Positions 6,524-43,241 of a DNA stretch of 64,000 bases are shown here, piece by piece. The translations under genes and the position numbers were made by a program. Numbering within the stretch: position 1 is the stretch's first letter; the number at the start of each line of letters is the position of its first letter. The notes under the pieces were generated by a model that saw nothing but the letters and a program-made list of their open reading frames with translations, had not been told where the DNA came from and searched no databases. This stretch comes from Haloferax elongans ATCC BAA-1513. GTDB lineage: Archaea; Halobacteriota; Halobacteria; Halobacteriales; Haloferacaceae. The stretch covers positions 186,001 to 250,000 of the forward strand of contig NZ_AOLK01000019.1 in assembly GCF_000336755.1 (NCBI RefSeq). The letters are read 5' to 3'.

Positions 6524-7744
6524 TCAGCCGTTGATGATGTCGGCGACGCGTTGCCGGTCGAACAACTGTTCTTCGGCGGGAATCTCCGGGTACGGGCCCG
6601 ACTCGTAGGTCGGCCACGGACCGAAGATGTCGGGGTAGAGCTGCTTTGCGGTCATCTCGGTCTGGAAGAGGTTGAGAATCGGTCCCTGATAGCGGGCCGC
6701 CTGCGCGTAGATGCGGCCGTTCTTCACCGCAGACACTTCGCTCGCAACCGGGTGGTCGGTGAGCGTCTGTCTGATTTTGCCCATATCTGTCGTCGGGTGC
6801 ATCCCACCGAGTGAGAGAATCACGTCCGGGTCGGCTTCGAGCAACGTCTCGAAGTCGATGGTCGCACCGGATTCGACGTCGTCGCCGAGTGCACCCTGCG
6901 CACCCAGTGGTCGCGTGTGTGCCGTCAGGAAACCGGGTGTGTTCAGATTGTAGGCGTAGATGGTCTCGTAGTCGCGCGACGCGAGCATCACGACAGTCGG
7001 CCGCTCGTCTGCCGGCGGAAGCTTCGACGAGATGGACTGTAGCATCTCCTCGCGAATCGACGCGAGGGACTCGTACTTCGCTTCCTCTTGGAGCACCGCA
7101 GCGACCTTCGCGAAGATTTCCCAGAGACCGTAGTGTTCGTAGCGGTCGGCCCACTCGGTCGGCGGGCTTCGGTTGCGGTCGCTGAACGTGTTTCCGAACC
7201 ACGGACTGACGGTGTCCTCGATTTCTTCGAGGTCCGCTTCGTCCCAGCTACCGAGTGCGGCGACGCTCGCCGGGTCCGCGAGGTGAACGTCGCTGTCGAG
7301 TTCATACAGTCGTTCCTTCGACGGCTCCCACGACGAGTAGAGACCGCTCCAGTCGAGCGAGACGCCGTCGAGTCGCGGCGTAAACTGGTTCCACAGCGCG
7401 TCGTAGTAGTCGGGCGCGTGCATCGAGTTGACGGCGTCGCCGTGGCCGAGCGCGAATGCCATCCCTGCGTGGTGGGTCAGACGGGTAAAGATGGTCTCGG
7501 GAACGCTGTCGAACGAAATCTCTCCCATCGGGGCCATCGAGACAGTGTACGACTCGTCTGCAGGAGTCGACTCGGTGGTCTGCTCCGGCGTCGACGATGA
7601 CGACGATTCGGTGGTCGAGGCTGCAGTCGTCTCGCCGTCGGTGTCTTGGCCAGTACAGCCTGCGAGAAGTCCGCCGGTAACGAGTGCGGCACCCGACTTG
7701 AGATAGGTTCGGCGCGTCGACGGATGCTGCTCTTCGAAGTCCAT
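6524..7744 (-). CDS. Iron/cobalamin-type ABC substrate-binding lipoprotein
   Basis: Periplasmic-type binding protein of 406 residues, fixed to the outer face of the membrane. It has a Tat motif (STRRTYL, RR 11-12) and a lipobox ending in C30, then a Thr/Ser-rich linker (about 38-65). The mature part shows the TroA/BtuF-like fold: PETIFTRLTHHAGMAFALG near the start and DFETLLEADPDVIL in the middle. These proteins bind ferric siderophores, haem or cobalamin. A DtxR-type operator directly before the ATG favours iron; the neighbour cbiP would favour cobalamin. No permease or ATPase gene is adjacent, so it is either an orphan or works with a transporter encoded elsewhere. Confidence 0.85.
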   Translation of the reverse strand: MDFEEQHPSTRRTYLKSGAALVTGGLLAGCTGQDTDGETTAASTTESSSSSTPEQTTESTPADESYTVSMAPMGEISFDSVPETIFTRLTHHAGMAFALGHGDAVNSMHAPDYYDALWNQFTPRLDGVSLDWSGLYSSWEPSKERLYELDSDVHLADPASVAALGSWDEADLEEIEDTVSPWFGNTFSDRNRSPPTEWADRYEHYGLWEIFAKVAAVLQEEAKYESLASIREEMLQSISSKLPPADERPTVVMLASRDYETIYAYNLNTPGFLTAHTRPLGAQGALGDDVESGATIDFETLLEADPDVILSLGGMHPTTDMGKIRQTLTDHPVASEVSAVKNGRIYAQAARYQGPILNLFQTEMTAKQLYPDIFGPWPTYESGPYPEIPAEEQLFDRQRVADIING

Positions 7745-7749
7745 ATTTC

Positions 7750-7765
7750 TTTAGGTCTGCCTAAA
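7750..7765. promoter_or_regulatory. DtxR-type operator TTTAGG-N4-CCTAAA
   Basis: Perfect inverted repeat TTTAGG-tctg-CCTAAA six bases upstream of the binding-protein ATG, overlapping its likely TATA region (TTTGTATTTTA on the minus strand). The arms and the 4-base spacer match the core of the DtxR/IdeR site. A second, degenerate copy (TTTAGG-tgag-CCGAAT) lies at 7784-7799. This suggests iron-dependent repression of the transport gene. Confidence 0.7.
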
Positions 7766-7893
7766 ATACAAAGAGCCGTCGATTTTAGGTGAGCCGAATA
7801 ATCGAGCGTAGTCGTCCGATTCGTGGTCGAGTGTAGCGTGGAACAGGCTCGGTCGAAACCCATCTCAGAAGACAAGTGGTGGTCACAGAGGCG

Positions 7894-41315: not shown

Positions 41316-41642
41316 TTAGAACGGCGGGCTGTAGTCTTCGTACTCGTCCATCTCTTCCATTTCGTCGGTCTTGTTCGGCATCACAGCCGCTCGCGGGCCG
41401 TTCGCGCGACGGACGGTCACTTTGGAGAGGTCCTCGACTTCGTCGGGGAGCCGGTGGCGAATAGCTCGCATCGTCATCGGTGCGATGCCACAGCCAGAGC
41501 AGGCACCACCGATGACGACCGTCACTTCACCGGTTTCGTCGTCGACGTCCTCGATCTCGAAGTGGCCACCGTGTTCTTGAATCTGCGGTACGTTGTCGTT
41601 CAGGAAACTTCGCGTCTGTCGTTCGAGGCTTTCTGCGCTCAT
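41316..41642 (-). CDS. NifU-like Fe-S scaffold (NifU C-terminal domain)
   Basis: Protein of 108 residues with one NifU C-terminal domain: GGHFEIEDVDDETGEVTVVIGGACSGCG, the CxxC pair that holds a bridging Fe-S cluster, then TMRAIRHRLPDEV. Role: carrier or scaffold in Fe-S cluster assembly in the cytosol. The ATG at 41642 opens the domain; the frame runs on to 41726 without support. A cluster of TTTAGG sites lies upstream, pointing to iron control. The C-terminal tail EMEEMDEYEDYSPPF is very acidic. Confidence 0.9.
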   Translation of the reverse strand: MSAESLERQTRSFLNDNVPQIQEHGGHFEIEDVDDETGEVTVVIGGACSGCGIAPMTMRAIRHRLPDEVEDLSKVTVRRANGPRAAVMPNKTDEMEEMDEYEDYSPPF

Positions 41643-41858
41643 ACAGGTAACCATTCGCCGCATTTGTGTTAAAACTATGGAGTTTGGACGCCCTAAATTT
41701 GAATATGTGATTTTTAGGCTATCCAAACAATTACAAATGCATGATTTTACTACTGCTTCCGATGGATACCGCTATAGTACCAACCAGTAGACGGCAGAGC
41801 CGGTATTGTGAGAATATTCCACCCGGTTTATTTCGAATACTAATACCAGGACATTTGA

Positions 41859-41874
41859 TTTAGGGCCGCCTAAA
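41859..41874. promoter_or_regulatory. DtxR-type operator, copy 1
   Basis: TTTAGG-gccg-CCTAAA, perfect arms, spacer of four bases. 80 bases upstream of the ATG at 41955. Confidence 0.75.
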
Positions 41875-41894
41875 ATCCGAAAACCATATGAGTA

Positions 41895-41910
41895 TTTAGG
41901 TTGGCCTAAA
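41895..41910. promoter_or_regulatory. DtxR-type operator, copy 2
   Basis: TTTAGG-ttgg-CCTAAA, perfect arms; its centre is 36 bases from that of copy 1, so two dimers could bind nearly the same face of the helix. It lies 45-60 bases upstream of the coiled-coil gene. Confidence 0.75.
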
Positions 41911-41954
41911 ACCATGGTAGCGGTAGCAAACAGCTACGGACCACTGACGCAGGC

Positions 41955-42767
41955 ATGAACGTCGAGAGACACACTCGACAGGCTCTCGACCGGGTCCACA
42001 GTGAGCGAGAACGCATCTTAGAGAAACAAGCCGCGTACGACGAGTTCGAACGTCGCATCCGCGGCCTCTCTCCCGGCACGCCCAACCAACGAGCGGCGAT
42101 GTCCCAGACGACGGGTGCGAGTGGCCTCGCTGGGTGTGCGGTCAGTCAGGCAAGCACCAACCGGAGTCGAGGAGACCAGTGCCAGCGGGTACGGGAGGCA
42201 TTCGCCCAGACTGTCCGTCCGTGTAGCCTCGACGACGTTCGGACGCAAGAGTCGCTGTTGAAGACGATTCGGGAGGAACTGGGTGAAGACCTTGCGATTG
42301 CACTGGCCCCGGAGAGTGCAAGTCGATTCACACCGGAGACCAAACGAGCAGTTCTCGAGGCGACTGCCGAGCGGTGTGGCGAACTCACCGTCATGGAGCG
42401 AGCGCTCGAACGAGAGGAGCGCTCACTCGAACAGACGGACGACGCGGTCACAGACGCCGTCGACTGGCTTAGCCGAGTCGACGAGACACCCCTTTCGACA
42501 CTCGGATTCGACGAGTTGCAGACGCGACACGCGGAGTTATCCGAGCGCCGGACTCGATGCGACACTCTCGCTCGTGAGCGCCAGTCGACGCTCGCCGAGA
42601 CGTCGAACAGCGGCGTGAGCGTCGCCATCCAACAGCGAGCACTCACCGAGTATTTGTACGCCGAATCGGCGGTCGAGCATCCCGCATTGGCGACGATAGT
42701 TTCCCTCGATAGCGTGCTGGCAGCGTGTCAGCGAGGGGTTCGAGACCATCTGGTTCGGAGGGTATAA
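41955..42767 (+). CDS. Coiled-coil protein of unknown function
   Basis: Protein of 270 residues, soluble, almost wholly helical with charged heptads (RALDRVHSERERILEKQAAYDEFERRIR and ERALEREERSLEQTDDAV). Two regions of low charge with cysteines near residues 56, 70 and 88. Similar coiled-coil proteins with a short N-terminal helical block are common in haloarchaea (DUF7260-like, tentative). It follows two DtxR-type operators and precedes a DtxR-like regulator, so an iron- or metal-linked role is likely but the function is unknown. Confidence 0.7.
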   Translation: MNVERHTRQALDRVHSERERILEKQAAYDEFERRIRGLSPGTPNQRAAMSQTTGASGLAGCAVSQASTNRSRGDQCQRVREAFAQTVRPCSLDDVRTQESLLKTIREELGEDLAIALAPESASRFTPETKRAVLEATAERCGELTVMERALEREERSLEQTDDAVTDAVDWLSRVDETPLSTLGFDELQTRHAELSERRTRCDTLARERQSTLAETSNSGVSVAIQQRALTEYLYAESAVEHPALATIVSLDSVLAACQRGVRDHLVRRV

Positions 42768-42824: not shown

Positions 42825-43241
42825 ATGACAAGTGCATCGCTGTATCTGCTGGCACTGTACATCGTCGAACACAGAGAAGAGCCACCAGTTTCGCCGAGTG
42901 TCGTCGCCGAGCAAGTCGGTCGCTCGTCGGCGACAGTCATAGAGGCCTTCCATCAATTCGACGAGGAGGGATTGGTCTCGTACGAACCGTACAAAGGAGT
43001 GGAGCTAACCGAAGCAGGAACGGAGGCCGCAGAAGAACTCCACGAGACGTATGTGACGCTCTCGTGGTTTTTTCGGAGCGTTCTCGACCTCGACGAGTAC
43101 GAAGCAGAGGCGATGGAGATGGCGGGAATCGTCAGCGGAGACGTCGCAGAACGACTCGTCACGACACTTCCCTACGATGGCAGTTCGCCTGCCGAAATCC
43201 CCGAGATAGACTGGGGGAGCGGAGAACTGGAACAAGATTGA
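42825..43241 (+). CDS. DtxR-like metal regulator, ligands degenerate
   Basis: Protein of 138 residues. The winged helix is clear: SLYLLALYIVEHREEPPVSPSVVAEQVGRSSATVIEAFHQFDEEGLV, then YKGVELTEAG as wing. The dimerisation region has the family histidine (H73 in ELHETY) and VSGDVAERL. Where DtxR has E-A-C-R-W-E-H, this protein has E-A-M-E-M-A-G, so three of the usual metal ligands appear replaced. There is no SH3/FeoA-like domain. Its operator candidates lie just upstream of the preceding gene, 57 bases away, so it may be part of an autoregulated unit. Confidence 0.85.
   Translation: MTSASLYLLALYIVEHREEPPVSPSVVAEQVGRSSATVIEAFHQFDEEGLVSYEPYKGVELTEAGTEAAEELHETYVTLSWFFRSVLDLDEYEAEAMEMAGIVSGDVAERLVTTLPYDGSSPAEIPEIDWGSGELEQD

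Follow-up and report, generated by a model that had tools for sequence, protein, structure and literature searches.

Twin DtxR-type operators bracket the predicted core promoter of a probable idr operon in Haloferax

The 64,000-nucleotide stretch of DNA analysed here (the window) comes from a Haloferax close to Hfx. larsenii, and the locus around its twin TTTAGG-N4-CCTAAA sites (Table 1) is very probably the promoter of an idr operon (leader ORF, DUF7260 gene, idr) that is subject to a block of the TroR type. This reading is carried by the observed sites, their genome-wide enrichment and spacing, the BRE/TATA elements in the gap between them, the position of the start codon, the gene family and the loss of metal ligands. 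Synteny with HVO_0538 and HVO_0539 places the locus, as an idr operon, inside the described TroR/Idr iron regulon. The system is ordinary in kind and part of the known Haloferax iron regulon, and the reading of an earlier note on this DNA has to be adjusted to the fact that it is not new: the Idr family (HVO_0538 by synteny) already stands in the published Haloferax iron network.

Table 1. Coordinates of the features in the window
Feature	Position	Strand	Remarks
Iron-type ABC substrate-binding protein	6524-7744	-	downstream of the 7750-7765 site
Third perfect site	7750-7765	-	5 nt before the start of the substrate-binding protein
Degenerate partner of the 7750 site	7784-7799	-	2 mismatches, spacing 34
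NifU-like (NifU C-terminal domain) Fe-S protein	41316-41642	-	108 aa; Pfam NifU (PF01106) 45.6 bits, cut-off 27; CxxC present as CSGC
Degenerate nifU-like site	41682-41697	-	2 mismatches; starts at -55 from ATG, abuts TATA region
Second degenerate nifU-like site GTTTGGATAGCCTAAA	41713-41728	-	2 mismatches; starts at -86
Distal operator TTTAGGGCCGCCTAAA	41859-41874	+	upstream of BRE; identical in Haloferax larsenii (L115)
BRE-like CGAAA	41878-41882	+	inside the 20-bp gap; consensus AWYCGRAR
TATA-like TATGA	41887-41891	+	inside the gap; consensus TWTRW at gap positions 13-17
Proximal operator TTTAGGTTGGCCTAAA	41895-41910	+	between TATA and predicted start
Predicted leaderless leader ORF MVAVANSYGPLTQA, then stop	41914-41958	+	14 codons; TGA overlaps the DUF7260 ATG (ATGA)
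DUF7260 protein	41955-42767	+	270 aa, all-helical; Pfam PF23921 218 bits; HVO_0539 family by synteny
Idr-family DtxR-like regulator	42825-43241	+	138 aa; N-terminal winged helix PF01325 (Fe_dep_repress) 33.4 bits, cut-off 26; canonical metal ligands replaced

Operator sites and their targets

The two perfect sites start 36 bp apart. The same locus is present in Hfx. larsenii JCM 13917. Between the window and Hfx. larsenii the 52-bp operator block shows no differences, while the sequence upstream of the block diverges. We scanned the 3.95-Mb genome of the window for the site and for its reversed pattern as a control, and it turned out that 19 perfect sites were found against 0 for the control (29 against 3 with up to one mismatch). 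The control had no match across 15 Haloferax genomes, and one 3.95-Mb dinucleotide-Markov sequence contained neither the site nor the control (0 and 0). The twin sites are real and not the product of chance. The operator core of bacterial DtxR/IdeR is TTAGG-N4-CCTAA. The earlier note had described two exact repeats 36 bases apart, had called them DtxR-type operators and had seen degenerate copies near the NifU-like gene; both repeats proved to be exact, the core palindrome is shared with bacterial DtxR/IdeR operators, and the degenerate copies exist, with 2 mismatches each, and are conserved rather than random.

None of the 29 genome sites examined falls within a called gene, and for 26 of them a called start follows within 150 bp. 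When the targets were classed by Pfam, most sites were located ahead of siderophore-synthesis or iron-uptake genes. The targets include Peripla_BP_2 binding proteins (four, at L018, L020, L023 and L024, plus one in the window), an SBP_bac binding protein, IucA/IucC, a GNAT acetyltransferase, a ZIP transporter, an aminotransferase class III with pyridoxal decarboxylase, a DUF5059-plastocyanin and a PAS/histidine-kinase protein. Such enrichment before iron-acquisition genes is the mark of a TroR/DtxR iron regulon, and judged by the predicted functions of the targets the site set is a siderophore and iron-uptake regulon. The iron-regulon reading of the earlier note is borne out by the genome scan that it had suggested, in which the enrichment in front of these genes is strong.

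Two of the targets deserve a separate remark. Three sites (one perfect, two with 1 mismatch) precede the DUF5059-plastocyanin gene (L017:4186-4292), whose presence in an iron regulon is unexpected. The PAS/histidine-kinase gene (L021:5805-7074) has a perfect site directly at its start, and its product matches DUF7551 weakly; DUF7551/DUF7552-like proteins are also found upstream of idr in other genera.

Degenerate sites occupy regular positions as well. In all 18 divergent nifU-like upstream regions a site starts at -54 to -58, and 10 of the 18 have a second one between -85 and -89. For dps, all 24 non-redundant upstream regions have a 2-mismatch site, mostly TTTAGG-N4-(A/G)CGAAA, between -68 and -71; the asymmetric form was seen in L060, L069, L096, L104 and others. 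The nifU-like and dps sites are located upstream of the TATA region or abut it, and their regulatory outcome could possibly differ from that of the bracketed promoters. Martinez Pastor et al. (2024) reportedly describe an activation of storage genes.

Promoter geometry and the leader ORF

We summarized the spacing of close site pairs, leaving out the loci that had been fetched by the pair pattern as a check on search bias, and the 36-bp spacing was exact in 40 of 43 pairs. The 50 unique 20-bp gaps share the consensus AWYCGRAR followed by TWTRW, and the haloarchaeal BRE and TATA elements have been published as CGAAA and TTWT (PMC4983044). At least 4 of the 5 BRE letters were found at fixed positions in 46 of the 50 gaps, compared with a mean of 3.7 and a maximum of 11 in letter-shuffled gaps, a count in which the positions were picked after inspection of the gaps, the better of two orientations was taken in real and shuffled sets alike, and many loci are related and so are not independent events. 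Past the inner site, an ATG or GTG follows within 12 nt in 57 of the 58 listed twin-promoter orientations (a small number of promoters appear in the list twice, once per orientation), with an offset of 4 nt in 33 and 3 nt in 12 of them. Since the 20-bp gap holds the putative BRE/TATA elements and the start codon usually lies 3-4 nt past the inner site, the twin operators bracket the predicted core promoter at a nearly fixed distance.

In the promoters of binding proteins, this ATG or GTG is where the gene itself starts. In Haloferax idr operons, except that of G049, it is the start of an ORF of 14-29 codons, different in sequence from case to case, which ends at or beside a further ATG, in the window that of DUF7260; the equivalent ORF of G049 is longer, with 87 codons or more. 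In Hfx. volcanii, the tested gene pairs with ATGA or TGATG overlaps are coupled (PMC6728339), and by analogy translation of the leader ORF may be coupled to that of DUF7260.

The DUF7260 protein and the Idr-family regulator

The AlphaFold2 (AF2) model of the DUF7260 protein is all-helical with a pLDDT of 84. A comparison with the PDB gave no sequence match and no significant fold match, and in our literature search DUF7260 was named in no paper found. Members of DUF7260 occur in 53 of the 60 genomes sampled from the taxonomic family. We also considered DUF7260 as an iron-specific family and rejected this: an upstream site was present in only 7 and an idr gene in only 6 of 26 DUF7260 loci examined, and the widespread family is mostly unlinked to the TTTAGG-N4-CCTAAA motif. 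For the window itself, control of the coiled-coil gene (41955) and the regulator (42825) as one unit, as the earlier note had it, appears right.

Among DtxR-like subfamilies, the 42825 protein matches best to Idr, which is separate from TroR and SirR and is present in 11 of 15 Haloferax genomes. Its metal-binding and dimerisation domain (PF02742) scores 23.1 bits, under the 27-bit cut-off. For the N-terminal winged helix, the profile aligns with the structures of DtxR, IdeR and MntR. The positions equivalent to H79, E83, H98, C102, E105 and H106 of DtxR are all replaced across the Idr family; the residues most often seen there, in a set of about 69 distinct sequences, are Y, S, E, M, A and G. 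At the same positions the SirR set has H, E, H, D, E and H, and TroR keeps two Glu. Because the canonical ligand positions are replaced, the 42825 protein is, as far as its alignment tells, a DtxR homologue and not a canonical metal-sensing DtxR. One TroR-class regulator (L030:1504-1956) is also without several DtxR ligands; its Cys-rich tail (CPDC...C...C) could be an alternative site for metal.

To name these proteins we relied on gene order. In three Haloferax genomes (G071, G067 and G028) the order is aconitase (read from sequence, without a library scan), a 149-aa membrane protein, twin sites, DUF7260, the DtxR-like gene and dps. HVO_0541 is acnA (PMC3828320) and Idr is HVO_0538 (PMC11349517), so by counting the DtxR-like gene would be Idr and DUF7260 would be HVO_0539. 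The 42825 protein thus probably belongs to the HVO_0538 (Idr) family, but is not necessarily a strict orthologue, because its locus adjoins nifU rather than aconitase and dps and the identity is only about 48%. In related genomes, a published primer that lies upstream of HVO_0863 (PMC6801745) matches just upstream of a pair of a ferritin-like gene and a 150-aa DtxR gene, which points to the latter as TroR. We take SirR to be the class of about 235 aa, located about 41 kb from TroR in G071, as the locus tag HVO_0819 predicts. The mapping of Idr, TroR and SirR to HVO numbers is accordingly a putative one.

Which protein binds, and which metal is sensed

The motif lies at most 1.5 kb upstream of the genes of 55 of 69 distinct Idr proteins, compared with 0 of 16 for TroR and 0 of 5 for SirR, and the result was the same when the count was repeated without pattern-selected loci. 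Perfect sites number 14-23 in the 11 Haloferax genomes with Idr and 3-7 in the 4 without it (G064, G065, G066 and G069). Both observations would suit autoregulation, in which the 42825 protein itself acts on the twin sites as the chief iron-responsive repressor, and the lower numbers in Idr-less genomes suggest that Idr could share the sites where it is present. We nevertheless regard autoregulation as unlikely: the sites persist without Idr, two such genomes (G064 and G065) carry 36-bp pairs in the same geometry round BRE/TATA before binding proteins, and all six aligned ligand positions are replaced family-wide. Since Idr-less Haloferax keep such sites and the canonical ligands are missing from the Idr family, the paralogue TroR rather than the 42825 protein is the likelier primary binder on the basis of phyletic pattern and published work, while Idr would be a target and a possible co-regulator.

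The physiological signal might also be a metal other than iron (Mn or Zn), given that DtxR-family proteins may sense Mn, that the best NCBIfam match of the paralogues is MntR-like (below cut-off) and that a ZIP transporter lies behind one site. This is very unlikely, as the majority of the sites stand before genes for siderophore synthesis or Fe-siderophore-type binding proteins, and published work on Haloferax and Halobacterium links these regulators to iron. Nothing was found in favour of a third reading, a chance or structural repeat with no regulatory role, and it has next to no probability in view of the empty control in 15 genomes and in the Markov genome, the fixed spacing, the conserved core promoter and the invariance of the 52-bp block against Hfx. 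larsenii while its upstream sequence diverges.

Proposed mechanism and comparison with known systems

In the TroR-type block that we prefer, iron dependence, the identity of the binder, the mode of block, the coupling and the role of Idr are the parts we infer. When iron is sufficient, an iron-responsive dimer of the DtxR family, most likely TroR, would occupy both sites and block TBP/TFB or RNA polymerase, so that DUF7260 and idr stay silent. When iron is scarce, the block would lift and transcription would begin within a few nucleotides of the ATG at 41914; translation would start at the leaderless 14-codon ORF, and ribosomes would reach DUF7260 through stop-start coupling. Lacking the canonical metal ligands, Idr may then feed back on the regulon as a partner, a competitor or a secondary regulator. 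A broader positional grammar is conceivable from the site positions but doubtful: 36-bp twins bracketing BRE/TATA would mark repressed genes, sites that touch the core promoter or lie upstream of it (near -70 for dps, near -56 and -86 for nifU-like) would form another, possibly activated class, and a metal-blind Idr, expressed through the leaderless coupled leader ORF, would modulate TroR at the same sites.

The TroR/Idr/SirR network of Haloferax volcanii belongs to the same genus and has the same regulator families and iron-uptake targets. Martinez Pastor et al. (2024) reportedly found in H. volcanii a conserved motif upstream of idr through which TroR represses this gene. The present locus differs in that the idr operon of the window lies beside nifU, whereas that of other Haloferax lies between aconitase and dps; BRE/TATA bracketing at 36 bp, a predicted leaderless leader ORF and the missing ligands are features read here from sequence. 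Idr1 and Idr2 of Halobacterium salinarum were reportedly described by Schmid et al. (2011). Strain DSM 3754 (L117) encodes an Idr-family homologue, 55% identical to the scan query, with no site of up to one mismatch nearby; the genes that follow it are on the opposite strand and were read as dmsD-like and NrfD/dmsC-like. With bacterial DtxR/IdeR, the core palindrome and the homologous N-terminal winged helix are common to both, while here an archaeal BRE/TATA is bracketed by two sites and Idr is without the DtxR metal ligands. MDR1 of Archaeoglobus fulgidus, likewise an archaeal metal-dependent repressor, is reported to block RNA polymerase recruitment (PMC2995911), a likeness of function.

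In conclusion, three details of this ordinary system are worth following, namely the bracketing at a fixed distance, the leader ORF and the missing ligands, and the earlier note had missed both the bracketing of BRE/TATA by the operator pair and the 14-codon leaderless ORF at 41914. With the bracketing, archaeal repression gains a promoter geometry that is simple and can be tested, and DUF7260, an uncharacterised haloarchaeal family, is tied to iron in its idr-linked subset. Besides, the ligand loss raises the question in what way iron control involves a DtxR homologue that lacks metal ligands.
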